A program made the translations under genes and the position numbers. A model generated the notes under the pieces. It was not told the DNA's origin. It saw nothing but the letters and a program-made list of their open reading frames with translations, and did no database searches. From contig CANKTP010000014.1 of assembly GCA_947486375.1 (NCBI GenBank), forward strand, positions 1 through 35,307: a DNA stretch of 35,307 nt, read 5' to 3'. Shown piece after piece: positions 3,649 to 29,221 of the stretch; the first letter of the stretch is position 1; each line of letters begins with the position of its first letter. Source of the stretch: Candidatus Hydrogenedentota bacterium. Its GTDB lineage: Bacteria > Hydrogenedentota > Hydrogenedentia > Hydrogenedentales > GCA-2746185.

Positions 3649-3780
3649 GCGGCAGCCTGACAAACATCGCCGTCGCCCGCGCACATTCCTTGCCGCGCGA
3701 AAACAGCGCGCGCGTCAAAAAGGACTTCCCCTTCCATCCGCTCCACCCGGGCCCCGAGTTCAACCGGGCGCTCGATCGGC
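3649..3780 (-). pseudogene. Fragment of the hotdog thioesterase 3' end (copy 2)
   Basis: Minus-strand peptide VERMEGKSFLTRALFSRGKECARATAMFVRLPR aligns with VERMEGRKSFLTCALFSQGKECARATAIFVRLP of the intact gene; no remaining N-terminal part. Confidence 0.85.
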
Positions 3781-3791
3781 TCCGCGCTGGT

Positions 3792-4721: not shown

Positions 4722-4962
4722 AAATTGGGGACAGTCATACATGAGGCTTACGCCTCACCCATAACAATGAAAAAGTGGTGGCCTGAGAGGTGGCCGGGGA
4801 CAGACACCGCGTTTCGCCCAAACTGCCGGGCGAAATGCGGAGTCAGTCCCTTGGGCTCGCCCGATGGTTGTATTTTCAAGGCAGTCACCCATTTTCTCGT
4901 CGTCGATAACTTGATTATTATTCGACAACGGCAATCGAGAAATAGGTGACTGTCCCCAATTT
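4722..4962. repeat. Palindromic element (copy B), 241 bp, 16-bp perfect terminal inverted repeats, with nested palindromes
   Basis: AAATTGGGGACAGTCA 4722-4737 is the exact reverse complement of TGACTGTCCCCAATTT 4947-4962; inner arms 4882-4899/4936-4952; internal stem CCGCGTTTCGCCC 4807-4819 / GGGCGAAATGCGG 4828-4840; hairpin TGAGGC-TTAC-GCCTCA 4742-4757. Confidence 0.8.
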
Positions 4963-4967
4963 CGGCT

Positions 4968-5432
4968 TCACGGCAACCTGACAAATATCGCCGTCGCCCG
5001 CGCGCATTCTTTGCCCTGCGAAAACAACGCGCACGTCAAGAACGACTTCCGCCCTTCCATCCGCTCCACCCGCGCGCGAAGTTCCACGGGGCCGTCGATG
5101 GGCGTCGGGCGGATGTAGTCCACGTTCAGGTTCGCCGTCACATACCAAATGCGCGGCTCGGACCCGATCGTGCGCCCCTCGGCATCGTACGCGGCGGCCA
5201 CCGCCGCGACGCCACAATGGCAGTCGATGAGGCTGGCCACAATCCCGCCATATAAAAACCCCGGCCCGCCCGTATGGTAGGGCTTCGGCGTCCACGTACA
5301 CACGGCCTCCGCGCCGTCCCAGTAACTCTTGATCTGGTGGCCCACCTCGTTTTGCGATCCGCAGCCAAAACAATTGGAGGGGACCAAGTCCTGGATCGCC
5401 TGCCGCGATTCCCGTCCCTCGCGCGAGTCCAT
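4968..5432 (-). CDS. PaaI-type hotdog-fold thioesterase (154 aa)
   Basis: MDSREGRESRQAIQDLVPSNCFGCGSQNEVGHQIKSYW...GGPGFLYGGIVASLIDCHCGVAA...; start ATG 5432-5430 overlaps the ppc stop (TGATG). The longer 4968-6122 frame is the ppc antiframe. Confidence 0.85.
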   Translation of the reverse strand: MDSREGRESRQAIQDLVPSNCFGCGSQNEVGHQIKSYWDGAEAVCTWTPKPYHTGGPGFLYGGIVASLIDCHCGVAAVAAAYDAEGRTIGSEPRIWYVTANLNVDYIRPTPIDGPVELRARVERMEGRKSFLTCALFSQGKECARATAIFVRLP

Positions 5433-15522: not shown

Positions 15523-15690
15523 TCAGTCCTTGCCGGGAAGAATCGACCCGATTATCCGGCCGACGGATTTCACGCCCGTACCCACCACGTTACCGGCGGT
15601 GCGAAGTACGATGCAGCCGGGCATGGCGGTAGAGGCGATCACCAAGACCGCGGCCAACAACAATCTTGCGAAGCGTTTGTAGCGCGGCAT
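15523..15690 (-). CDS. Small predicted lipoprotein (55 aa)
   Basis: MPRYKRFARLLLAAVLVIASTAMPGCIVLRTAGNVVGTGVKSVGRIIGSILPGKD*; basic N-terminus, hydrophobic core, lipobox-like AMPGC; absent from the ORF track because of length. Confidence 0.65.
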   Translation of the reverse strand: MPRYKRFARLLLAAVLVIASTAMPGCIVLRTAGNVVGTGVKSVGRIIGSILPGKD

Positions 15691-15968
15691 GCGCGGATTT
15701 CCTCGTTTCGAGCCGATTCGGGCGAGTTGTCAGGGGGATTGTACAACACAGGCCGGTCTCGAATCGCCGCGAGAATTCGCGTCGGGAATGCAGGCATGAG
15801 CGAACATCTTGGGAGTGGCGTCCCTTTTGTAGTGGCGACGACCGCATCGGGGTTTCTTGGGCAACCGGAAGGCTTGCTTTCCATTGCCGGGACCGGGGCA
15901 TGGCTTCGTTTTGCCGATGGTTTGCGTGGCGTGAGACAATCGCCCCGCCAATGCAAGGAGGATTGCTT

Positions 15969-16418
15969 GTGACGCTCGAGGACTTGGAACAATACGTCAT
16001 GCGGTATTTGGCGCAGGTGGGAAACCCGCTGGTCCGCATCGACACGTTGATCGCGCACCTCGAGGCGGACGGACGCTTGGCCGGGTTCAGCCGGGAGCGC
16101 CTCGTAGAGTTTCTCGCCCAACACGAACTCATCAAGGTCCTCGACGCGCAGGGGCTGAAGGCCAATCCGCGCATGGCGGCGGAGTGGGTGAAGGAAGGGC
16201 TTTCCCTCGGACCCTACGTGATTCTCAACACGCGCATGCCCGCGCCCGCCCAGATAATCGAGATGATGCGTGGCCAGATCCACACGATGCACGAGGCGCT
16301 CGAGGCGGCCCTCGATCACGCGCGCGAGGCGAAGGACGCGATCACGGAAGAAAAGGTCCTCGCCGCGATCGCCCGCGCGCAGGGCATTTGGAACAAGCTC
16401 TTGCCTCCGGGAAATTAG
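15969..16418 (+). CDS. Hypothetical protein (149 aa), GTG start
   Basis: AGGAGG at about 15957-15962 before GTG; VTLEDLEQYVMRYLAQVGNPLVRIDTLIAHLEADGR...; the last codons GGA AAT TAG come from the adjacent element arm. Confidence 0.75.
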   Translation: MTLEDLEQYVMRYLAQVGNPLVRIDTLIAHLEADGRLAGFSRERLVEFLAQHELIKVLDAQGLKANPRMAAEWVKEGLSLGPYVILNTRMPAPAQIIEMMRGQIHTMHEALEAALDHAREAKDAITEEKVLAAIARAQGIWNKLLPPGN

Positions 16419-16539
16419 GGACAGTCACCTATTATTCGATATAGGTAGTATATCTATGGCCCTAGTGCGGATTGAAGTAGCGCCGGTGCCTCGAGGTCAA
16501 CCGGCGGAATCGAATAATAGGTGACTGTCCCTAATTTCC
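16410..16539. repeat. Palindromic element (copy C), 130 bp
   Basis: GGAAATTAGGGACAGTCACCTATTATTCGA 16410-16439 and exact reverse complement 16510-16539 (32 bp if one more base at each end of the arm is counted); 70-nt core. Confidence 0.95.
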
Positions 16540-16598
16540 CCCATCGGGCGCCGCGCGTCCGCTAACGCGCGGCGCCCGTGTGGGAGCAAGGGCCCGCG

Positions 16599-19202
16599 CT
16601 ACGCAGCCGTTGAGACGTGCGCGGGCCGTACCGCAACCTCTTGCGCCGATAGCATGAGGGCAAAGCCACGCTTGGGTATCGTCTTGATCATCCCCTTGCG
16701 ATGGGAGAGGACGTTTTCGATTCGTTCGAGGAGTTGCCGTTTTTGGAAGTGCATCTGGTTGTCCTCGACCACCGCGTCGCCCCAGACCTCGCGGTAAATC
16801 CGGTCGTAGGGCACGCATTCGCCGGGATGTTGCGCGAGGAGCCGGATCAACCGGTATTGCTTTTCTTGCAGGGTCACCGAGACGCCGTCCAACTCGATCT
16901 GGCCCGCATACCGGTCGTCGACGATGAGCGACGGGCCGAGGGGCTTCCGCGTCTCGGGTGCCGATTCTCCGGGGAGCGGGACTGCGGAACGTCCCGCCCA
17001 GGCCTTGAGCGCGCGCGCGGCGTCCTTCGGCATCCATTGTTCGAGCACCCGCGCCGGGGCCTCGACTAGCGCCTCCGGCGTGTGCAAATTATTCGAGACG
17101 AGGGCTGCGATGGCCGCGCGAGAGGGTCCCGGATCCCTCACTCGGCCCACCGGCAAGGCTTCCTTCCGCAGCCCTCGTTGTACGCGTTCGGATAGTTCCC
17201 GCAACCGCGCCACAAACCCCGGCGCGGCCCCCAGCGCCGTCGCGATCGCGGCGGCACCATCCACCAACCAACTGATTTGGTCGGCCACGGCGAGGATTTG
17301 ACCCGTCAGGGTGTGATAGCGTTCCTCGAGTTCGCGCAACGGCGTCTGCTCGATCCAGTCGTTCAACAACAGCGCCGTCTTGATTGCGCGAATGTCGTCG
17401 AAGAAAGGTTTCACCGCGCTGTTCCGCACCCGGTTCAAGGGCACGTCGGCGCGGGAATCGTCCTCGGCCGTCACGCGGCGCAACCATGCCGGATAGTCCA
17501 CGCCGTCGCATTCCTCGGCGGTCAGCCCGATCAGCGGACTCCGTCCGTCGGGGGTCAATGCCGCCGCGAATACCAAGTCAATCGGGCTCCACGAGCGCGA
17601 CTGCGACCGCACCACCCAGGCCTCGAGCTCCGCGCCCGTCGAAATCGACAATCCCTTCGACGCCAACGCGAGACCCAGCGGCGTCGCCTCGATCCGTCCG
17701 TCGGGATCGTGCGTAAGCGCGCCCGCGTCCGCCGCCCGGTGAATCGCCGCGCGCACGCGCAGCTCGGCCTCTTCCTCGGTCAACGTCGATTTCCATACCC
17801 ATTGCCCCGTCAACGTCGCATCGAGAAACGCGCGAAGCTCGAGCTCCGTCCGGCAGGCGCGCGACGCGGCGAGTTGGAGCACATAATTCTCGAGCGGCTC
17901 GCGCGCGAGGCAGGGGTCGACCGGCTCGCGTTCGCCCTCGACGTAGCGCCGCCACAGGGACTCCTGCTCGAAGGGCGTCGCCGCGATCAGGATCGAGCGT
18001 CCGAAGTCTTGCCCGATGCCGTAGCGTCCCGCGCGCCCGCCCATGTTCTCGTATTCCGACCGCAGGATAGGCGCCTTCCACGGCGTGCCGAAGCGTTCGT
18101 CGTAGCGCCACTTGTCCGCCGTGATGAACACGTTGCGCGCGGGCAGGTTCATCCCCACCGCCAGCGTGCCCGTCGAGACCAACGCCCGGATCGCGCCGGT
18201 CCGGAATCCATGCTCGACGATCCGCCGTTCCTCGGGCGACAAGTCCGCGTTGTGAAACGCGACGCCCTTCGCCAGCGTCTCGAGCAGGGCCTCGCGCGAT
18301 TGCGTCGCCTCGAGCGCCCGCAACGCCGCCATCGGGCCTTCCGCCGCCGGGCACTCCATCCGCTCGGCCAGCAACCGCGCGCCGCGCCGCGATTCGTGTT
18401 TCGCCTTGACGAACACCATGCTCGTCTCGCCTTCCTCGGCGAAGCGGCACACGTTCCGGGTCAAGACTTCCCACGGTCCCTCGCCCGGCGCATCGTCCAA
18501 TTCCTCGGTGGCCTCGGTCATCCCGTTGTACATCCGGTAACGGAAACGTCCGTCGCACAACACACCATAGCGCAGCTCGACCGGGCGCTGCTCGTATTGC
18601 ACCAGCCGCGCCTTCATCCACGCCGCCAGTTCGTCCGCCGCGCCAATCACCGCCGACAGCCCAATCAACCGCCGGCCCGATTGCAGTACCCGCGTCAGTA
18701 GCAATTCGGCCATGCCGCCGCGTTCCGGGTCCGATAGAATCTCCAGTTCGTCCGCGATGACCAATTCGATCTCCGCAAGCCGCTCGGGACGCCGCACCAA
18801 CAACTGCGCCAGCTTCTCGTAGACCACCACAGCGATCGAGAAATCCCCCGACTCGAGCGCCCCGTCGAACTCGCGGTGGTCCCGCGACGACACGATGACC
18901 TTGATGCCGTACTCGCTGTACTTCGCCTTGAACTCGCGGTACTTCTCCTCCGCCAACGCCTTCAACGGCACAAGGTACACCACCTTCTTCCGCCGCAACG
19001 CGGTCTGCACCGCCGCCATCTCGCCGATAAACGTCTTCCCCGACGACGTCGGCGCCTGCACCAGCATATTGCCCCCCTCGAACAGCCCATGCCGCTTCAC
19101 CGCCGCCTCCTGCACCGGCAACAGCCGCTCGCCCATCGCCCCCTTCCAAAGGCCAATCACCGCCGGAGGCACATTAAACCGCAGCAAATCATCCAGTTTC
19201 AT
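16599..19202 (-). CDS. Ski2/Hel308-like SF2 DEAD/DEAH-box helicase with C-terminal OmpR/PhoB-type winged-helix DNA-binding domain
   Basis: Motif I QAPTSSGKT, motif II ADELE, motif III LSAVIG, motif IV-VI STGTLAVGMNLPARNVFI and NMGGRAGRYG; C-terminus RLIRLLAQHPGECVPYDRIYREVWGDAVVEDNQMHFQKRQLLERIE...IKTIPKRGFALML matches Trans_reg_C. ORF track start 19277; likely ATG 19202. Confidence 0.88.
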   Translation of the reverse strand: MKLDDLLRFNVPPAVIGLWKGAMGERLLPVQEAAVKRHGLFEGGNMLVQAPTSSGKTFIGEMAAVQTALRRKKVVYLVPLKALAEEKYREFKAKYSEYGIKVIVSSRDHREFDGALESGDFSIAVVVYEKLAQLLVRRPERLAEIELVIADELEILSDPERGGMAELLLTRVLQSGRRLIGLSAVIGAADELAAWMKARLVQYEQRPVELRYGVLCDGRFRYRMYNGMTEATEELDDAPGEGPWEVLTRNVCRFAEEGETSMVFVKAKHESRRGARLLAERMECPAAEGPMAALRALEATQSREALLETLAKGVAFHNADLSPEERRIVEHGFRTGAIRALVSTGTLAVGMNLPARNVFITADKWRYDERFGTPWKAPILRSEYENMGGRAGRYGIGQDFGRSILIAATPFEQESLWRRYVEGEREPVDPCLAREPLENYVLQLAASRACRTELELRAFLDATLTGQWVWKSTLTEEEAELRVRAAIHRAADAGALTHDPDGRIEATPLGLALASKGLSISTGAELEAWVVRSQSRSWSPIDLVFAAALTPDGRSPLIGLTAEECDGVDYPAWLRRVTAEDDSRADVPLNRVRNSAVKPFFDDIRAIKTALLLNDWIEQTPLRELEERYHTLTGQILAVADQISWLVDGAAAIATALGAAPGFVARLRELSERVQRGLRKEALPVGRVRDPGPSRAAIAALVSNNLHTPEALVEAPARVLEQWMPKDAARALKAWAGRSAVPLPGESAPETRKPLGPSLIVDDRYAGQIELDGVSVTLQEKQYRLIRLLAQHPGECVPYDRIYREVWGDAVVEDNQMHFQKRQLLERIENVLSHRKGMIKTIPKRGFALMLSAQEVAVRPAHVSTAA

Positions 19203-19280
19203 GACGCAACCCTCGCGCTCGCCACGGGTGGAGTCCCGGCAATCCAAGCCGGGTAGGCCATTCCGCCCATGCCGCATTCC

Positions 19281-19309
19281 AATATACTGAATTGTTGTTC
19301 AGTTGTCAA
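19281..19309 (-). promoter_or_regulatory. Predicted sigma70-type promoter of the helicase gene with dyad in spacer
   Basis: Minus strand TTGACA (19309-19304) - 17 nt - TATATT (19286-19281); ACTGAA-N6-TTCAGT dyad at 19286-19303. Confidence 0.75.
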
Positions 19310-19496
19310 GAAGATTTTTGAGCGCGGCCATCATGGCGCGGGATAACGGGTTAAGGTGATTCCGGATTGGCACGCATTGGGAACGCATTGACGAATTTGC
19401 TGGCTCGTGTTACCGTAGTGCTATGGGGGGTGCGGTCGGCGCAGGCCGCAACCCCGTTCGAGTCCTTTCGAATCGACCTACACCAAGGCGGCGCAG

Positions 19497-20078
19497 ATGA
19501 ATCAAGAGTTCCGAAAATCCCCCAAGTTCATTTCGCGCTATCTCCATGAGAGGGCCAGAAACTCGATCGCGCTTTTGGGCGTGGGTCTTGTGGGGATTGC
19601 GCTACGAGGGGAACCCTATATGGCTGAGAACTTTATCTTCGCAAGAGACGGAATTCTGTACTTCTTTCTCTTTTTTATTATCGTCGGGACTACGTATTTG
19701 CCCTACACCATCCGACGTTTCCGAACTGAGCGTCTCGTGGCGGACGCTTCGGGATTGAAGTGGATGTTTCCCGTCCAACAATGGGAGTTAGCGCTTGGTT
19801 GGACAAACATGACGGGTGTCCGCGCCACTCGACTCCGTTCGGGAAGGATCACCAAGCTCAGGATTACCGGTTTGGGAATGGTGCCGATGCGTCTTTCCCA
19901 TCTGGACGATCCGGAACGGCTGTTGCAAATCGCGCAAGAACAAACCGGCATCGACCCAGAGTACGCGACCGCCATCGACTGGAGCTTTTGGCGATCCATT
20001 TGCTTTTACGTCGCCATTGTCGGGATGTTGAATCAACCAATCACCTATTTCACAGGTCGCCTTCTGGCTTTTATCTGA
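19497..20078 (+). CDS. Hypothetical membrane protein, PH-like topology, paralog 1
   Basis: MNQEFRKSPKFISRYLHERARNS...SGRITKLRITGLGMVPMRLSHLDDPERLLQIAQEQTGIDPEYATAIDW...; similar to the next ORF. Confidence 0.75.
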   Translation: MNQEFRKSPKFISRYLHERARNSIALLGVGLVGIALRGEPYMAENFIFARDGILYFFLFFIIVGTTYLPYTIRRFRTERLVADASGLKWMFPVQQWELALGWTNMTGVRATRLRSGRITKLRITGLGMVPMRLSHLDDPERLLQIAQEQTGIDPEYATAIDWSFWRSICFYVAIVGMLNQPITYFTGRLLAFI

Positions 20079-20115
20079 GAGAACCCGAATTGTATCCCTG
20101 CGAAAGGCGGTGAGA

Positions 20116-20691
20116 ATGCATCAAGAGTTTCGGAATTCACCGCATCTCATCGCGTACTACCGCGCCATGGGCCCTCTCGCTTTCGTAACGCTATTGGGTG
20201 TGAGGGTGTTGGGAAAGGTGCTGGCGGAGTTTTCCCCGTCATTTAGTGAAACCTACAGCGTTGTTTATCCGGATTTATGGGCTTGGACTTTCGGCGCCCT
20301 CTGCACACTGGCGTTCTTGTACGCCATCTACCGATTTATGGTATTGGACCGTGTCGTGGCGAGCGATTTGGGATTGGCGCGGAAACGCAAATTCTTGAAG
20401 GAACGTGTGCTTCCGTGGACCAGCATGGCGAGAGTTCGCGTCTCCCGGACCCGGTCGGGAAAAATCACCTGGCTACAAATTACAGGATCGGAAACCGCAC
20501 CGATGTGGTTGCCCGAACTGGACGATACACAGCGATTGCTGCAAATCGCCCGCGATCGGACTGGACTCGAACCGGAGTACGTGACCCGCATCGACTGGAA
20601 CTCGTGGGGCATTCTGTTCATCACGATGATCATTGGATGCCTGATTTTGCCAGCCATTCTTTTCGCCAATATGTATCTGGCCGTCCACTAA
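20116..20691 (+). CDS. Hypothetical membrane protein, PH-like topology, paralog 2
   Basis: MHQEFRNSPHLIAYYRAMGP...SGKITWLQITGSETAPMWLPELDDTQRLLQIARDRTGLEPEYVTRIDW... Confidence 0.75.
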   Translation: MHQEFRNSPHLIAYYRAMGPLAFVTLLGVRVLGKVLAEFSPSFSETYSVVYPDLWAWTFGALCTLAFLYAIYRFMVLDRVVASDLGLARKRKFLKERVLPWTSMARVRVSRTRSGKITWLQITGSETAPMWLPELDDTQRLLQIARDRTGLEPEYVTRIDWNSWGILFITMIIGCLILPAILFANMYLAVH

Positions 20692-20754
20692 TCCGGCCCG
20701 AATTCAAACGAGCAAATCTCGGAATCCCCCGGGAGCAACTTGGAGGAAGTACCC

Positions 20755-21147
20755 ATGACCAAGACACGCATCGCCACGACCCTCGCCCTGATGACCCTCG
20801 CGTTCGCCGCAGGGACGCTCGCGCCCAACGTCCTCTCCTCACCCACGGTACACGCCCAGCAGTCCGCCGCCGATTGGTGGCCGATGTTCGCCAAGTCATC
20901 CGAGGGCGCGAACGCCGTACTCGCGATTACGCCCCAAGTCTCCGCCAACGGCCAAGTCCGTCTCTGGATCAATCTCGACCTCGGCGACGTGCCCTCCATG
21001 GAAAGCGAGCCCGCCCTAAACCCTGCCACTAACATCATCCTCAACAACCAAGACACGAGCTACTTCACATACGCGATCACTGACAAGGCGGAGTTCAAGA
21101 CGGTAGCCATCAGGGCGCACAAGGCAAGCGCTGGCGACGCCAAGTAG
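20755..21147 (+). CDS. Hypothetical secreted protein
   Basis: MTKTRIATTLALMTLAFAAGTLAPNVLSSPTVHAQQ signal/anchor, then a small soluble domain; upstream GGAGGAAG. Confidence 0.7.
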   Translation: MTKTRIATTLALMTLAFAAGTLAPNVLSSPTVHAQQSAADWWPMFAKSSEGANAVLAITPQVSANGQVRLWINLDLGDVPSMESEPALNPATNIILNNQDTSYFTYAITDKAEFKTVAIRAHKASAGDAK

Positions 21148-21252
21148 TCCTTTACTTCACTTGATTCTTAAAGTGGAAGCCGCGTCCTCGCCGCTTTAGA
21201 CGAACTCGAAGCCCCGAACAACGGCCAATAGCAAGACGTATTCATAAATTTT

Positions 21253-21335
21253 GGTCGGGGCACAAAGCGGCGGGACGCCGCTTCCATGTTGTGCGCCTCC
21301 TCGACGACCGTCGTACACGCCTCGGTGCCCCGACC
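21253..21335. repeat. Small inverted-repeat unit (83 bp) with internal hairpin
   Basis: GGTCGGGGCAC 21253-21263 pairs exactly with GTGCCCCGACC 21325-21335; inner AAGCGGCG-GGA-CGCCGCTT 21265-21283. Confidence 0.6.
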
Positions 21336-21604
21336 TCTACGCCCTCTGCGCCGACGGCAACCCCGACGCCTTCATCACCTCCCGCCTCTACTTCACGAGT
21401 CAATCCGGCAACCGCGTTTTGCGCCGACACTGCACGATGATAAGCGATTGGGAGAAACCGGAATGGGTCGAGTGAGCGGGGTGATTTGGTTATCAAATGC
21501 AATAGCCCGGGCGAATTGACAAGGGAATAAGGCCAGTCTCACGACTCGGAACATCGAAGACGGTATAATCCTATTGTAGAGTCGCGTGGGCGAGGAAGCT
21601 TTTC

Positions 21605-21811
21605 ATGGAACCGATGGTACTAACATCCGACTTTCGCATACAGTTTCCGGAAACGTTAAGAAAGCAACTGGGTTTGCGACCCGGCCAAAAGTTTCATGCG
21701 ATAGCGGTGGGGGAACATATTCATTTGATCCCCATCAAGCCCCTTGCCGAGCTTTGCGGGTTCGCCAAGGGCATCGATACCAATGTACCGCGAGACGACG
21801 ACCGCGTATGA
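21605..21811 (+). CDS. AbrB/MazE-type swapped-hairpin antitoxin
   Basis: MEPMVLTSDFRIQFPETLRKQLGLRPGQKFHAIAVGEHIHLIPIKP; ATGA overlap with the PIN-domain gene. Confidence 0.88.
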   Translation: MEPMVLTSDFRIQFPETLRKQLGLRPGQKFHAIAVGEHIHLIPIKPLAELCGFAKGIDTNVPRDDDRV

Positions 21812-22185
21812 ACGTGGTGGATTCCAGCGGATGGCTGGAGAACTTCGCCGACGGCCCCAACGCAGATTTATTCGCCGATCCGATTCTCGAGGCCGGCACC
21901 CTGGTTGTCCCGGTAGTCACGGTGTTCGAAGTCTTCAAACGGATGTATCTACAGCTCGACGAGCATGCCGCGCTTAGCGCGGTGGCAAACATGCAGCAAG
22001 GTCAACTGGTCGAGCTTGACACGGCGCTCGCCGTGCATGCGGCACGGCTCAGCGTCGATCTCAAGTTGCCGATGGCGGACAGCATCATCCTTGCCACGGC
22101 GCGCGCGCACGACGCCATCCTCTGGACCCAGGACAGCGACTACGAGGGAATCGAGAACGTCAACTACAGGCGGCGCAATTCCTAA
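21808..22185 (+). CDS. PIN-domain (VapC-type) toxin
   Basis: MNVVDSSGWLENFADG..., VTVFEVFKRM, LPMADSIILATARAHDAILWTQDSDYEGIENV; acidic PIN residues present. Confidence 0.9.
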   Translation: MNVVDSSGWLENFADGPNADLFADPILEAGTLVVPVVTVFEVFKRMYLQLDEHAALSAVANMQQGQLVELDTALAVHAARLSVDLKLPMADSIILATARAHDAILWTQDSDYEGIENVNYRRRNS

Positions 22186-22260
22186 CTGCCCATGCCGCGG
22201 GGGAAGGGCATTTGCTATGATCCGCGGCGGCGTCCGCGGGAGGGCGCGGGGAAGGAGCGC

Positions 22261-23211
22261 ATGGCAGGCACCTCTATCGAGAACCCGGTATTTCTGGTCG
22301 GGGCGGAACGGTCGGGGACGACCGCATTACGCCTCATGCTGGATCATCACCCGCGGGTGGCGTGGAAGTACGAGTTCGAGCTCAGCGTCGAGTTCCTTCC
22401 GCGGGAGGGCGGCTGGCCGGCGATGAGCGCCTACCACGATTGGCTCGAGAACCACCGGGTGTTCCGGGCGAGCGGGCTGACGCTCGACCGTTCGCTCGAT
22501 TATCCCGGCCTGATGAACGACTTCATGCGGCAAATTCGCGAGACGAACGGCAAGCCGATCACCGGCACGACCGTCCATCTCCACTTCGACCGAATCCTGC
22601 GCATCTGGCCCCAGGCGCGCTTCATACACCTTGTGCGCGATCCGCGGGACGTGGCCAAGTCGGTCATCGGGATGGGGTGGGCGGGGAACGTATGGGTGGG
22701 GGTGGAGGTGTGGATCGAGGCCGAGGGCCTCTGGGACAACTTACGCGCCGAACTAAGCCCCGACCGCCACATCGAGTTGCAGTTCGAGTCCCTCATGACC
22801 CAACCCGAGGCTGAACTCCGCCGCCTATGCGATTTCCTGGGCATCGAGTACGACCCCGCGATGCTCCGCTATCCCGAGCACACCTCCTACGACGCGCCGG
22901 ACCCGAATCTGGTATACCAATGGAAGACCAAACAGACGCCGCGGGAAATCCAACTCGTCGAATCGCGCTGCGCCGCGCACCTGGTACGGCGCGGTTACGC
23001 CTTGAGCGGCCACCCCCCAGTCGAGGTGACGCCGGCCATGATGGCCGCGTTGCGCGCACAGGACAAACGCGAGCGAGTGAAGTTCGGCATCCGCCGCTAC
23101 GGCCTCTCGCTCGTCGTGCAGGGATATCTCGCGCGGCGGCTCGGGCTCAAGGGGTGGGAACGGGCGGTGGATCGGCGGGTACAGGCAATCACGCAGAAGC
23201 ATTTGAAGTAA
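22261..23211 (+). CDS. Sulfotransferase family protein
   Basis: PAPS-binding loop VFLVGAERSGTTALRLMLDHHP and 3'-phosphate motif ARFIHLVRDPRDVAKSVIGMGW. Confidence 0.9.
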   Translation: MAGTSIENPVFLVGAERSGTTALRLMLDHHPRVAWKYEFELSVEFLPREGGWPAMSAYHDWLENHRVFRASGLTLDRSLDYPGLMNDFMRQIRETNGKPITGTTVHLHFDRILRIWPQARFIHLVRDPRDVAKSVIGMGWAGNVWVGVEVWIEAEGLWDNLRAELSPDRHIELQFESLMTQPEAELRRLCDFLGIEYDPAMLRYPEHTSYDAPDPNLVYQWKTKQTPREIQLVESRCAAHLVRRGYALSGHPPVEVTPAMMAALRAQDKRERVKFGIRRYGLSLVVQGYLARRLGLKGWERAVDRRVQAITQKHLK

Positions 23212-23369
23212 CTGCGGCGAGCGCGCCGGGGCGGCCCTTCGTGCCCGCCGCGAGTCCTGGAGCAAGAAGTCAGGACGGCTACCTCCTTGATCGACCGCCA
23301 AGGCTAGGTTATAGTCAGGAGCAGCGCAAGAGCATTTAGCGTCGTTTCAACCGATGGGTACACGCCCGT

Positions 23370-23768
23370 ATGGCTCCCCTACGAACTTTCGCCCCGTGTC
23401 TAGGTGATACGCTGTCGCGACTCCATGAGTTTCTCACCCTCGAGGCCAATTGGAATTCTTACGGTGCCGATCCCGTGTCCTTGAATGCGGTTGAGACGGC
23501 GATATCTATCATGTACTCCGTACAAGAAGAGTTGTTCGGCTCGATAGAGGAAAGAATTGTTCCTGCGTGCGTGGCCCCGCTTGACGATGGGGGTGTCCAG
23601 ATCGAATGGTCAGGGACGAACGCGGAGATCGAGGTCGAAATCGGGCCGGATGCGGCGCTTTCCTACCTGTTGGCGAATGGAATAGGTCCTGAACGAGCCT
23701 TTGAGGAAGTGGAAAGTGCGAGTCTCGACCTCACGCTGAATAAGATATTCTATACGTTACTTGCCTAA
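23370..23768 (+). CDS. Uncharacterised protein (132 aa), gene A of a two-gene cassette
   Basis: LHEFLTLEANWNSYGADPVSLNAVETAISI...PACVAPLDDGGVQIEWSGTNAEIEVEIGPDAALSYLLANG; 2 nt upstream of gene B. Confidence 0.75.
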   Translation: MAPLRTFAPCLGDTLSRLHEFLTLEANWNSYGADPVSLNAVETAISIMYSVQEELFGSIEERIVPACVAPLDDGGVQIEWSGTNAEIEVEIGPDAALSYLLANGIGPERAFEEVESASLDLTLNKIFYTLLA

Positions 23769-23770
23769 AA

Positions 23771-24151
23771 ATGGGTGCGGATGTAAAGATAGCGGAAAAC
23801 GACTGGTTATATCGACGAATTCTCGGCATCCACATCAAGGATGGCGACCAAGTTAGCTCTGCGGCATTCAAGAATAAAACCAAGAAGCCGGATCCCGAGC
23901 CGTCCGTGGATCTGGCAAGGCTGACGACTCCCCAACAATGTCTGGATCTGGTGCCGCGCGGCATGGGGCTTATCGAGTTGCAGGCAAAGATCCTGCTGTC
24001 TTTGGGGTTCGCCATAATCCATGCTCCCGTGCCGGACAACTCCGCGCACTGCGTGATTAGGGGCGGGCATACGATGGAAACGTGCCGCAAGCTGGCCGAG
24101 GGTTCCCGGGTACGGATCAGACCTTCGGTCCGCCAAAATCAGGGTATGTAA
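23771..24151 (+). CDS. Uncharacterised protein (126 aa), gene B of a two-gene cassette
   Basis: LYRRILGIHIKDGDQVSSAAFKNKTKKPDPEPSVDLARLTTPQQCLDL...LGFAIIHAPVPDNSAHCVIRGG. Confidence 0.75.
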   Translation: MGADVKIAENDWLYRRILGIHIKDGDQVSSAAFKNKTKKPDPEPSVDLARLTTPQQCLDLVPRGMGLIELQAKILLSLGFAIIHAPVPDNSAHCVIRGGHTMETCRKLAEGSRVRIRPSVRQNQGM

Positions 24152-24189
24152 CGTCAATCGCTGACCTAACGAACGGTATCCGACTCACA

Positions 24190-25794
24190 ATGTCCGCTAA
24201 TGCACAAACGCCCCTGCGCACCCTCACCGATGAAATCCTCGCCACGGAGGCCGTGCTTCGCGAGGGCGGGGGGCGGAGCGGCTGGGAACGGCAGCGCCGT
24301 CTCGGGCGGCTCCCGGCACGTGAGCGCATTCAGTTGTTACTGGATCCGGGCGCGGCGTTCCTCGAGGTCAATCTCTGGGCGGCCTATGGCATGTACGAGG
24401 AAGTCGGGGGCGTGCCCAGCGCGGGACTTGTCACCGGCATCGGACCGGTATGCGGGCGCGATTGTCTCATCGTCGCGAACGATGCCACCGTCAAGGCCGG
24501 CACGTTCTTTCCGCAGACCTGCAAAAAGATGTTGCGCGCGCAACGCATCGCCTTCGAGTGTTCGTTGCCGCTGCTTTACCTCGTCGATTCCGCCGGCGCC
24601 TATCTCCCGATGCAGGACGAGGTGTTTCCCGACGAGGACGACTTTGGCCGCATCTTCCGGAACAACTCGGTGTTGTCCGCGGCGGGCATCCCGCAATACG
24701 CCGCCATCATGGGCAATTGCATCGCGGGCGGGGCGTATCTGCCGGTGCTCAGCGACAAAATCCTGATGACCGAGGGCAGCGGCCTCTACCTCGCGGGGCC
24801 CGCGCTGGTGAAGGCGGCCATCGGCCAGGAGGCGGACCCGGAGGAGTTGGGCGGCGCGGCCATGCACGCCGAGATCAGCGGCACGGTCGATTTCAGGGAA
24901 CCCAACGACGAGGCCTGCCTCGCGCGGTTGCGCTTGTTGGTCGACCTACTTCCGGAAGCCGCGCCGTACGCCGCGCCCGGAGCGCCCGGCTCCGATCCGC
25001 AATCGCTCTATGACCTCATCGACGTGAACGGGCGAAAAGAGTACGACACGCGCAAGATCATCGACTGCATCATCGACGCGGGGACGTGGCAGGAGTTCAA
25101 GCCCGACTATGGCCAGACCATCGTCTGCGGCTTCGCGCGGTTCGGCGGTCGCCCCGCAGGCATCGTGGCGAACCAACGCCGGCGTTGCCACTCGAAGAGC
25201 GAAGGCCTGCAGATCGGCGGCGTGATTTATCCCGACAGCGCCGACAAGGCGGCACGGTTCATCATGGACTGCAACCAGACCCATGTCCCGATCGTATTCC
25301 TGCAGGACGTGATGGGGTTCATGGTCGGCCGCGACGCCGAACAGTCGGGCATCATCCGCAGCGGCGCTAAACTGGTCAACGCGGTGAGCAATTGCATCGT
25401 GCCGAAGATCACCGTCATTGTGGGCGGGTCCTTCGGCGCGGGCAACTACGCGATGTGCGGCAAGGCCTACGACCCGACGTTCATCTTCGCGTGGCCCAAC
25501 GCCAAGTACGCCGTCATGGGCGCCGAGCAGGCCTCGGGCGTCATCTTCGACATCCACAAGCGGGCCGCCGAGCGCGACGGCCACGGCCTCGACGCGGCGG
25601 AACTCGAGGCGCTCCGCGCGAAGATCCGCGCCGGCTACGTGGAGAAGACGGACATCCGTTACGGTGCGGCGCGCGGCTGGGTGGACGGCATCATCGCGCC
25701 GCACACGACGCGGGACGTGCTCGTCAGCGCCATCCGGCTCGTGGGGCGCGAACGTCCATCGAGGCGGTTCCACTCGGGCGTCTTGCAGGTATAG
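24190..25794 (+). CDS. Acyl-CoA carboxylase beta (carboxyltransferase) subunit, methylcrotonyl-CoA carboxylase-like
   Basis: LPARERIQLLLDPGAAFLEVNLWAAYGMY, LPLLYLVDSAGAYLPMQDEVFPDEDDFGRIFRNNSVLSAAGIPQYAAIMGNCIAGGAYLPVLSD, GGSFGAGNYAMCGKAYDPTFIFAWPNAKYAVMGAEQASGV. Confidence 0.95.
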   Translation: MSANAQTPLRTLTDEILATEAVLREGGGRSGWERQRRLGRLPARERIQLLLDPGAAFLEVNLWAAYGMYEEVGGVPSAGLVTGIGPVCGRDCLIVANDATVKAGTFFPQTCKKMLRAQRIAFECSLPLLYLVDSAGAYLPMQDEVFPDEDDFGRIFRNNSVLSAAGIPQYAAIMGNCIAGGAYLPVLSDKILMTEGSGLYLAGPALVKAAIGQEADPEELGGAAMHAEISGTVDFREPNDEACLARLRLLVDLLPEAAPYAAPGAPGSDPQSLYDLIDVNGRKEYDTRKIIDCIIDAGTWQEFKPDYGQTIVCGFARFGGRPAGIVANQRRRCHSKSEGLQIGGVIYPDSADKAARFIMDCNQTHVPIVFLQDVMGFMVGRDAEQSGIIRSGAKLVNAVSNCIVPKITVIVGGSFGAGNYAMCGKAYDPTFIFAWPNAKYAVMGAEQASGVIFDIHKRAAERDGHGLDAAELEALRAKIRAGYVEKTDIRYGAARGWVDGIIAPHTTRDVLVSAIRLVGRERPSRRFHSGVLQV

Positions 25795-25922
25795 GAAATT
25801 AGGGACAGTCACCTATTATTCGAATTGTCCGGTTGAGTTGCGTAACGGGGATCGCCCCAGCGCAACTGGAGACCGCGACGGTCCCGTACTCATCGAATAA
25901 TAGGTGACTGTCCCTAATTTCC
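25794..25922. repeat. Palindromic element (copy D), 129 bp
   Basis: GGAAATTAGGGACAGTCACCTATTATTCGA 25794-25823 and exact reverse complement 25893-25922; 69-nt core unlike the copy C core. Confidence 0.95.
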
Positions 25923-26513
25923 TGCCAGCGCCTTCGAGACAACCGCACGCAAATCGTCCGGTATCGGCAAGGACAACGCGGCCTGATGCGCCGCTTCCGA
26001 CATCTTCGTCCACGTCTTGCGGATGACGCCGATCAACTTTTCTTCGTCCATGTCGTCGCGCCGCGCAAATTCGCCGAGATGATACTCGATGAACACAAGG
26101 CAGGCGGCGTCCTCCAGTGCCTGGGTCTCCGCGTTTATTCGTAGGTCTTTCTTCTGTAGGAGTTCCTGGACCCGCGCGATGGTCCCGGTATCGTACCCGG
26201 CCTTTACCAGCAACGCGCCCGCCTCGTCCGCGTGAAAACGGTAGAGTCGCGTTCGCCACGCATGGTATCCCGCGCGCGTCATTGGGAATTCGTTTCGCGG
26301 AATCGCCCAACGCCGCAGGTGCTGCGCCCGCACCGCGAGCCGCAACGCCTCCGATGCGCCGGGATGGATTCGGTCCAGCCATGCGCTCATGCGGCGGCCA
26401 TAGATCAGTTCCTTCGCCTGCTCGACGCTTTCGGCCAGTTCCCGGTTCGGGTCTGCCGCGTTGGCTTCGTCGATTAACTCGATCGCCCGTTCGAACTTCG
26501 ATTTGCCGGTCAT
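25914..26513 (-). CDS. DUF4202 domain protein
   Basis: FERAIELIDEANAADPN..., ELIYGRRMSAWLDRIHPGASEALRLAVRAQHLRRWAIPRNEFPMTRAGYHAWR...IRKTWTKMSEAAHQAAL; start overlaps the upstream stop (ATGA); stop TAG lies in the element arm. Confidence 0.9.
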   Translation of the reverse strand: MTGKSKFERAIELIDEANAADPNRELAESVEQAKELIYGRRMSAWLDRIHPGASEALRLAVRAQHLRRWAIPRNEFPMTRAGYHAWRTRLYRFHADEAGALLVKAGYDTGTIARVQELLQKKDLRINAETQALEDAACLVFIEYHLGEFARRDDMDEEKLIGVIRKTWTKMSEAAHQAALSLPIPDDLRAVVSKALAGN

Positions 26514-29221
26514 TTTTCCCTCACGAGGCGGAAGCCGCGATAGGCCTCGCCGGCCATCGGCTCGCGCATGCGGCCATCGGCGGGTTGATCGGCGCTGCCG
26601 CCCATCAGCTTCCCGGCGCCGTCCTTGTCGGCGGTCCATTCGGCCGCGTTGCCGCCAAGGTCGAAGACCAGGAGGTCATCTCCCCTGCCCGCATGCATGC
26701 CCACTTCGCGGAGCAAGGGCGCGGCGCCCTCGAGCGCCGCGATGGACGCGACGAGGCGTTTCGCGTCGTCGGGGTTGGGGGCGAATCCGGCCCAGTAGTC
26801 GAGCGTGTTCTCGGCACCTTCGGCGGACTTGTAGAGAATCTTGGATTCGTCCTCGTTCGGGAGGCGATAGGCCGCGCCGATCCGCTCGGAGAGGGCCTTC
26901 GCATACACCGTCGCCTGCTCGAACGAGATTCCATTCGCGGGGAAGTTCTCGGTGCCGGGTTCGACGGCATAGTCCGGCATGAGCGACGCATACTGGGCGC
27001 GGGTGATCTCGAAGCGGCTGATCTCGAGGCCTTCGTAGGCGACGATCTCGGGGACAAGCGCGCCGCTCTCGCGATTGCCATGGAGGCGTCCGTCGCGCGC
27101 GATTGTGCTTATCTTCAGCGCGATGTCCAAGGGCGAGCCTTTCTTCACGGCGGGATTTTTCGGTTGCTCGGACTTGAAGAAATGCCGTGCGAACCAGGCG
27201 AGGTCCTCGTCGACCTTACGCTTCTGGTGTTGATACTTCTGCAAGCCGTGGGGTTCGCCGGGAAATAGAATGAACTTCACGTCGGTCTTGCCGAACTGTT
27301 GCAGGGCGCGAAAATGCGACCAACCCTGGCCGGGCGGCACGGCGCGGTCCTCCGTGCCGAAGTAGATGATCGTGGGCGCGGTGACTTTGTCGAGCCGGAA
27401 GAACGGGGACTTCTCGATGTATCGCTGCGGGTCCTCGAAGGGCGATGCGCCGAGGTAGTAGTTGTCGAACGATGCGCCGAAATCGACATTGCCCCAGTCG
27501 CTGATCCATTCGACGTCCCCGGCGCCCGCGGAGATGGCCTTGTAGCGCGGGTTTCGCGTGACGAGCTCGATCGAGAGGATGGAGCCGTTCGACCAGCCCA
27601 TCGTCGCGAGGCGATCCGGATCGGCGAGGCCCCGCGCAATGAGCGTGTCCACGCCGGCCTCGATGTCGGGTATCTCGAGGTCGTAGTAATTGCCGCCGCC
27701 GATCGAGTCGGACCAATCGAGGCCGTAGTTCGCGCTGCCGTGGTAGTTCACCTCGAGCACGAGGGCGCCTTCCTGCGCGAGCAAGACCTTTGGAGCGCCC
27801 CAGCCCTGGCGCCATTCGTCGGTGTCGGTGCCCATCGGCCCGCCGTGGATCGAGAGGATCAACGGATACTTCGTCCCCTCCTGGTATCCAATCGGGTAAT
27901 AGACAATGCCATCGACGCGATCGCCGCGCGCGCCCACCCAGTCGATTACCTCGGCCTTGGGCTTGGGCTTCTTGTCGTAGTTCGGATTGAGCTTGGTCAG
28001 GATGGTCTCGCCGCGAATCGAGCGGCCCCGAAGATCGGCGGCGACCCACTGCGACGGCACATCCGCCTTCGAGTAGCGATAGACCAGTGTGTCGCGATCC
28101 GGGCCGAGTTCCCAGCCGTACATGTTCGCGACATGATCGCCACCGATTTCTGACATGGACCAACGGTCGCCTTGCTTCGAATAGCGCGCCGGTTTGTATC
28201 GCACTCCATCGGAAAGAAGCGCGATGAACCCGACCCGCGTCGCATGGACGGTTGGGGACCCGAGGCCGCGTGACCATGCGAGGTCAACCTGCGTGAGCGA
28301 CCCGGTGGCGCGATCGCAGTAGTAGACCTGGTTGACGTAGCCCGTGATGTATACCGGATGTTTCGATACCGGCGCGGTGACGTAGAAGCCCTTGCTGTCC
28401 GGCGTCCAGTCGATATCCCGCGCGAGCAAGCGTTTGTCGGCGAAAAGTTGCGTCGACGCGCCGGTGTCGAGGTTCGTGAGGAACGTGAAGGGGAAGGCCT
28501 TGTGATCGAACTCGAAGCTCAGGCTTCGCGCGTGGCGCGTGACTGCCCAGCGGCCGTCCGGCGAGACCCATAACTCCTCCATCCAATCCGTGTTCGAGGT
28601 GACGCGAGTGACCTTCTTCTCGTTGACATCCAGCAGGAACAGGCGCACGGGGGGCTCGTGTTCGGCGTCCTCGACGACGTTGGAGGTGTCCTTGTCTTTC
28701 TTGATCGTCGCCTCGACCAGCGTCGGGTCTTCCTGGGCGATAAACGCGATGGTGTCCTTGTCTTTCCACGCATATCCCGCGATGCCCCGCTGGAGAGAGG
28801 TGACGTGCCACGGTTCGCCGCCATTGGGACGAATCAGCCAGAGCTGGGTCTCGGCGAGGTTGTCCTTCTTCTCGGGGGATTCGGGCAACGGGCGCGTGCT
28901 GATGACGCTGATGAGCTTGCCGTCCGGCGACCACCTTGGCGACGAGTACAGCGACTGCCCGCGCGTCAGTTGGATTTCCTGTTTTCCGTCGAGCGATGTG
29001 AGGAACAGATTGGCAATGCGCTTGCCCTTTTCCTTGTCCATCTGGGACTTGCACCACACAGCCCAACGCCCATCGGGGGCAATCTGGAACCCAACACCGG
29101 TCTCCGCGAGGAGGATGTCGTCGGGGGTCCATTTTGAATCGTCGGCGTGGGCGAAGATGGACAGGGATAGGGCGACTAGACAGGTCACAACTAGACTCGG
29201 AGTGGGGTTTTCGCAGTGCAT
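26510..29221 (-). CDS. S9 prolyl-oligopeptidase-family peptidase fused to a C-terminal FGE-sulfatase (SUMF1-like) domain
   Basis: Signal peptide; LILSIHGGPMGTDTDEW, ATMGWSNGSILSIELVTRNP, LFPGEPHGLQ triad regions; then FEITRAQYASLMPDYAVEPGTENFPANGISFEQATVYAKALSERIGAAYRLPNEDESKILY...NTLDYWAGFAPNPDDAKRL...LLVFDLGGNAAEWTAD...GGSADQP...YRGFRLV. Confidence 0.92.
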   Translation of the reverse strand: MHCENPTPSLVVTCLVALSLSIFAHADDSKWTPDDILLAETGVGFQIAPDGRWAVWCKSQMDKEKGKRIANLFLTSLDGKQEIQLTRGQSLYSSPRWSPDGKLISVISTRPLPESPEKKDNLAETQLWLIRPNGGEPWHVTSLQRGIAGYAWKDKDTIAFIAQEDPTLVEATIKKDKDTSNVVEDAEHEPPVRLFLLDVNEKKVTRVTSNTDWMEELWVSPDGRWAVTRHARSLSFEFDHKAFPFTFLTNLDTGASTQLFADKRLLARDIDWTPDSKGFYVTAPVSKHPVYITGYVNQVYYCDRATGSLTQVDLAWSRGLGSPTVHATRVGFIALLSDGVRYKPARYSKQGDRWSMSEIGGDHVANMYGWELGPDRDTLVYRYSKADVPSQWVAADLRGRSIRGETILTKLNPNYDKKPKPKAEVIDWVGARGDRVDGIVYYPIGYQEGTKYPLILSIHGGPMGTDTDEWRQGWGAPKVLLAQEGALVLEVNYHGSANYGLDWSDSIGGGNYYDLEIPDIEAGVDTLIARGLADPDRLATMGWSNGSILSIELVTRNPRYKAISAGAGDVEWISDWGNVDFGASFDNYYLGASPFEDPQRYIEKSPFFRLDKVTAPTIIYFGTEDRAVPPGQGWSHFRALQQFGKTDVKFILFPGEPHGLQKYQHQKRKVDEDLAWFARHFFKSEQPKNPAVKKGSPLDIALKISTIARDGRLHGNRESGALVPEIVAYEGLEISRFEITRAQYASLMPDYAVEPGTENFPANGISFEQATVYAKALSERIGAAYRLPNEDESKILYKSAEGAENTLDYWAGFAPNPDDAKRLVASIAALEGAAPLLREVGMHAGRGDDLLVFDLGGNAAEWTADKDGAGKLMGGSADQPADGRMREPMAGEAYRGFRLVREK

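Follow-up and report, generated by a model that had tools for sequence, protein, structure and literature searches.

Among the described systems of short bacterial palindromes, REPINs and TIRtrons offer the closest comparisons to the hairpins analyzed here. REPINs are inverted doublets that form a hairpin with conserved ends; their spacer length and hairpin capacity are critical, and the stem often carries compensatory changes (Bertels and Rainey 2011, PMC3116915). Another account calls the spacers 'short and highly diverse' (PMC8049555). In TIRtrons, or TIRYTs, a RAYT-like Y1 gene is flanked by inverted repeats without GTAG, some of these terminal inverted repeats (TIRs) carrying the motif GGGGWSAS, and TIRs can form moderately abundant families in which many members are dimers (Di Nocera et al. 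2013, PMC3733652). Subclasses of TIRYTs, such as group 2.1 with a C-terminal HTH, are discussed by Quentin et al. (2018, PMC6006769). In Escherichia coli, 260 of 496 REPs lie within 15 nt of the end of an open reading frame (ORF) (Liang et al. 2015, as described in PMC12306157), and, in the account of the latter source, REPs no more than 15 nt from a stop codon can regulate translation.

The two palindromes that we followed up (copies C and D) lie in a window of 35,307 nt, by which we mean the whole stretch of DNA that was analyzed; it corresponds to contig C14, and the genome (3.80 Mb in 253 contigs) is 88.7 per cent complete. Very probably, both are REPIN-like doublets of the TIRtron type, nonautonomous and RAYT dependent, with the foot [T/A]TAG in place of GTAG. 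They resemble REPINs in being inverted doublets with conserved ends and compensatory stem changes, in having a spacer that is diverse in sequence and constrained in length, and in occurring in many, mainly intergenic, copies with a RAYT gene beside the same repeats. Constant arms and spacing around a changing core, which the first-pass annotation had treated as an anomaly, are an already published REPIN property (PMC3116915, PMC8049555). Unlike REPINs, they lack a GT[AG]G foot, and their arm greatly exceeds a REP in length; moreover, the spacer is near saturation, and one-sided stem changes are almost absent from a family that is known from sequence alone. With TIRtrons and TIRYTs, the hairpins share a Y1 transposase that has HUH and Y---NP motifs and is encoded between non-GTAG TIRs; unlike TIRtrons, they are nearly all dimers, with two fixed spacer lengths, a perfect stem of approximately 32 bp, and placement at stop codons. 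With respect to the motif GGGGWSAS, most arms read AGGGACAG (7 of 8 positions), whereas the exact GGGGACAG is found in a minority of arms and in a genome of the same family (G001). TIRtrons and TIRYTs, with their TIR motif GGGGWSAS, are the closest named kind.

Hairpin copies in the window and across the genome

The hairpins and their neighbors in the window are as follows.

4868–4959: decayed short-class copy, the third in the window (covariance model 24.8 bits, E-value 0.00027 in the window; sequence read)
15666–16418, + strand: ORF without a Pfam match; its stop TAG (16416–16418) comes from the left arm of copy C
16408–16541: copy C, long class; arms 16408–16439 and 16510–16541, core 16440–16509 (70 nt); exact arms; covariance model 118.1 bits on the − strand
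16599–19277, − strand: DEAD-box helicase gene, a convergent neighbor that ends 58 nt from copy C
24082–25794, + strand: carboxyltransferase gene with an uncertain start (24082 or 24190); its stop TAG (25792–25794) is at the edge of copy D
25792–25924: copy D, long class; arms 25792–25823 and 25893–25924, core 25824–25892 (69 nt); exact arms; covariance model 115.4 bits on the + strand
25914–26639, − strand: DUF4202 gene, convergent; its stop TAG (25914–25916, − strand) comes from the right arm of copy D

The first-pass annotation had noted identical 30-nt arms at both sites, and the arms are indeed exact in all four places (16410–16439 and 16510–16539 in copy C, 25794–25823 and 25893–25922 in copy D), with none expected by chance in dinucleotide shuffles. 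The two copies are oriented opposite to each other. The full arm is approximately 32 bp long, has GGGACAGTCACCTATT at its heart, and extends from about position −10 to +21 when counted from GGGACA. In the decayed copy, the right arm (4934–4963) alone is well preserved, with three mismatches. An Rfam scan of the window matched no family.

Directly adjoining the decayed copy is a palindrome of a different type (4796–4850; GGGGACAGACACCGCGTTTCGCCC ... GGGCGAAATGCGGAGTCAGTCCC), the arm mismatches of which fall at A/T positions, as in the palindrome family of contig C158 described below. The decayed element also adjoins a duplicated gene segment, the two parts of which (3650–3787 and 4971–5110) are 80–88 per cent alike and approximately 1.3 kb apart. 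In the predicted protein of the helicase gene, the helicase is combined, unusually, with Trans_reg_C, a C-terminal winged-helix regulator domain.

Across the genome, the arm has 85 matches at three or fewer mismatches, whereas a reversed-pattern control (the arm read backwards) has none. The genome-wide search for inverted arm pairs that the first-pass annotation proposed recovered 35 pairs spanning 112–115 nt and 8 spanning 74–77 nt, with none in between. Measured inside the 22-nt inner arms, the core is 68–71 nt long in all 35 long pairs. The correspondence of the 70- and 69-nt cores of copies C and D is thus a property of the family and not a chance match, and the wide variation in core length that had been named as evidence to the contrary was not seen. 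We also trained a covariance model on 20 of the long copies; in a genome-wide search, it retrieved the paired-arm set and added two short copies (on contigs C49 and C18), a decayed long copy (C3, 54 bits), an element beside a transposase gene (C103:2502–2641), and the decayed copy in the window. The family has approximately 48 copies, among them about 36 long, 10 short (with cores of approximately 30–33 nt), and the 1 beside the transposase gene. Published REPIN copy numbers are usually higher than 48, which counts against the REPIN-like reading. Decayed copies form no continuum, and nearly all copies score above 67 bits with the covariance model.

The two discrete core lengths (approximately 31 and 69 nt) apparently depend on one transposase, and the inner arms of the short class (for example, L034, L045, and L036) are slightly different, often reading TTTGA where the long class has TTCGA. 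At L211 (178–206; contig C52:8376–8406 of genome G000), GCGAAAATAGGGAC is joined directly to its own complement, giving a palindrome of arm tips that lacks both the inner arms and the core and is perhaps a deletion relic of an element.

The long-class pair was not detected in any other genome of the class (68 searched), and a paired-arm search of the contigs of GTDB220, a collection that possibly does not contain the source genome, retrieved none. The hairpin family is specific to this genome; the family itself is new, and its REPIN-like kind is already known.

Homology of the cores and symmetry of the arms

The first-pass annotation saw no evident similarity between the cores of copies C and D, which holds for the orientation in which they were printed but not once the cores are oriented. 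In their joint best orientation, the long cores score 986, as compared with 462 ± 53 for shuffled cores (the largest of 30 shuffles reached 624), and pairwise scores under free orientation average 0.13, as compared with −3.74 for shuffled cores. Because the oriented cores score so far above the shuffles, they constitute one diverged family, which is an outcome that the first-pass annotation had itself listed as speaking against its reading of the cores; its interpretation overall is partly supported. The mean best-orientation identity of the 35 long cores is 0.53. The best pair is 85 per cent identical, the next pairs approximately 70 per cent (71 and 70 per cent), and those that follow approximately 63 per cent, whereas most nearest neighbors have identities of 0.55–0.64, close to the shuffled background. 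Between copy C, reverse-complemented, and copy D, a stretch of 43 nt that takes in arm and the edge of the core (CCGGTTGA) agrees at 91 per cent of positions. The oriented cores of this pair score 3.0, where shuffles average −3.1 and 3.6 per cent of them score as high, a likeness so weak that kinship is not provable from that pair alone.

Each of the two cores can fold, as had been pointed out, but the folding is nothing special: the z-score of the minimum free energy (MFE) is −0.15 for copy C and −2.5 for copy D, and the means of the long class are +0.13 and +0.12 on the two strands. The consensus fold of the family consists of the 32-bp arm stem alone. With mean z-scores near zero on both strands and a consensus fold without core structure, the core was rejected as a structured RNA. 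Adenine-specific change of the core, of the kind made by diversity-generating (DGR-like) systems, was likewise rejected, since the core substitutions between the closest copies are of mixed type.

In the 32-bp stem, 98.3 per cent of cells are paired. At the variable positions from −10 inward, the left and right arms agree better within copies than between copies (0.67 vs 0.28 at position −10, 0.95 vs 0.46 at −8, and 0.98 vs 0.59 at −3); this excess stops at −11 (0.28 vs 0.25), and the flanks beyond −10 have no excess left/right complementarity. Stem changes are double-sided in 36 cells and single-sided in 1. Stepwise compensation should leave intermediates, of which nearly none are seen, and it is therefore more likely that one arm was copied from the other or that the elements inserted into already symmetric sites. 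The outermost 4 bp or so are complementary (that is, inverted) within a copy and differ between copies with related cores. Specifically, among three copies with related cores (L040, L041, and L015), 4–12 of 20 outer bases and 9–20 core positions differ, whereas none of the 44 inner-arm bases does. The outermost bases therefore appear to have been gained anew at each insertion site. Reading frames were used to ask whether the symmetric terminal 4 bp existed before insertion or were copied. With one of the two 4-bp copies taken as native, the extension is 14 codons or fewer in 6 of 12 cases, and in fewer cases otherwise; our own estimate of the chance figure is approximately 4, so that neither origin is favored. 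At position −3, in the foot, T occurs in 61 of 86 arms, A in 25, and G never, so that the foot is [T/A]TAG and the canonical GTAG motif of REPs, with GT[AG]G, is not found.

Transposase genes beside the arms

The genome has three Y1_Tnp genes. The one on contig C103 has same-arm palindromes on both sides and is the kind of RAYT/Y1 gene, flanked by the same arms, that the first-pass annotation recommended looking for. It encodes a protein of 224 amino acids with the motifs NHVH (HUH) and YVELNP (Y---NP), as read in the translation; the protein matches PF01797 with 44 bits and the NCBIfam model NF047646 (REP-associated tyrosine transposase) with 79.8 bits, just under the curated cut-off of 80. 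In Pfam, it matched Y1_Tnp alone and no HTH, and comparison with PDB sequences gave no relevant match. A paralogue on contig C158 scores 80.3 bits against NF047646; it has palindromes of its own, the arms of which are related but mismatched in part. These palindromes bracket the gene (L062) at 1169–1243 and 1931–2005, have imperfect arms (GGGACTGYCTCC vs GGTGGCTGTCCC), and are of a type that recurs very rarely in the rest of the genome.

Homologs of the RAYT in other genomes also stand beside similar arms. In genome G021, of the same order, homologs (57–67 per cent identity for the two best) have adjacent arms with GGGACAGTCACC; in G008, also of the same order, a homolog (61 per cent identity over 70 residues) is adjacent to GGGACAGCCACC; and in G001, the gene of a homolog (64 per cent identity) is flanked on either side by GGGGACAGTCACC. 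Common to these arms is GGGACAG[T/C]CACC. G021 also has palindromes with nearly the same arms and almost no loop, indicating that the spacer is dispensable in that genome. Several RAYT fragments in G021 lie at contig ends beside GGGACAG[T/C]CACC arms (L145, L149, L155, L157, L161, and L163), which suggests that the RAYT of this genome is multi-copy and insertion-sequence-like. Around the RAYT homologs from Acidobacteriia (L072–L074), simple scans for inverted repeats in the flanks detected no comparable arms.

We infer that the C103 HUH/Y1 transposase acts in trans, with the arms as its recognition hairpin. The hairpins would be processed as single strands and inserted elsewhere, and the spacer would be a passenger of fixed length (68–71 or approximately 30–33 nt), the sequence of which is free to drift.

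Placement at stop codons and competing explanations

Nearly all copies are situated at gene ends. On the basis of simple codon-score gene calls, a facing stop codon lies between −12 and +6 nt from the element end in 30 of 43 copies, as compared with approximately 9.5 per cent expected for uniform intergenic insertion. The stop codon is inside the arm in 12 of these copies, a stop that would arise with every insertion in that frame, and at the element edge in the other 18. Both situations are found in the window: copy C closes the upstream ORF by its own arm, and copy D has an edge stop (carboxyltransferase) and an arm stop (DUF4202). Once the element is removed, more than half of the element-bearing gaps are 36 nt or shorter, whereas tandem gaps of up to 30 nt make up just 98 of 13,236 intergenic bp. 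The copies in G021 and G008 have similar stop-codon placement. Like REPs of E. coli, these palindromes lie just past the ends of ORFs, at a distance of a few nucleotides; unlike those REPs, the arm itself often provides the stop (TAG in TTAGGG or ATAGGG), and the element-free gaps are mostly tight operon junctions. Insertions lie mainly at the 3′ ends of genes, where the TAG of an arm can close a reading frame and a tight operon gains an intercistronic hairpin.

The same placement is what one would look for if the hairpins were regulatory devices of the host, such as terminators, mRNA stabilizers, or translation brakes at gene 3′ ends, with selection on the arms of old and stationary copies and no constraint on the core. 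Clean arms, the near absence of decayed copies, and cores near saturation agree with this explanation, as does the regulation of translation by E. coli REPs close to stop codons, as described in PMC12306157. We nevertheless consider it unlikely. Stationary copies should recur in the five genomes of the same family, but none has a hairpin that scores alike (the best, a hairpin with a 3-nt loop, reaches 50.6 bits); selection at the RNA level would be expected to leave stem intermediates, one-sided or G-U, of which there is 1 as opposed to 36 double changes; and the presence of a RAYT gene between matching arms would have no explanation. Both views can be partly true if mobile elements acquired an effect on the host later.

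The first-pass annotation had also raised core replacement or cassette capture, in which fixed arms repeatedly take up a new insert of set length. The fixed length fits such a process, as does the barely above-shuffled likeness of most core pairs, but the cores taken together are one family, their graded similarity with mixed substitutions resembles drift, and a relative has nearly the same arms without any core, all of which makes capture very improbable. A conventional MITE of DDE insertion-sequence origin, to which the terminal inverted repeats and small size would be suited, is hardly credible at all, because the transposase encoded between the matching arms is of the HUH/Y1 type, the flanks beyond −10 lack excess complementarity, and the outermost bases are inverted and not directly repeated.

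Under the preferred reading of the copies as RAYT-dependent doublets, one arm has apparently been re-copied from the other, by which the stem would stay perfect when bases change. One tentative version, which we think possible but not probable, is that the element lineages are old and their sites young. With each move, one end would fold back and copy the other arm along with a few flanking bases, thereby remaking a perfect stem and replacing the outermost 3–4 bp, while the cores approach saturation and the arms remain clean. Fold-back copying predicts symmetric double changes without intermediates, as well as ends that are not common to copies with related cores, and both are seen; alternatively, the symmetric ends may be due to insertion into already palindromic sites. 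For the combination of clean arms and old cores, young sites are favored over selection on the arms in place with loss of the copies from genomes of the same family. At copy D, the best orthologue among the same-family genomes (G004, 71 per cent) is not syntenic downstream.

The family carries the logic of REPINs and RAYTs over to a TIR-type system that is non-GTAG, has clean length classes, and lies outside the organisms usually taken as models. Because one-sided stem changes are nearly absent, it becomes directly testable whether stem symmetry is due to selection for pairing or to templated copying during movement. Finally, their placement at stop codons makes these copies a natural set of intercistronic hairpins for the study of operon expression.
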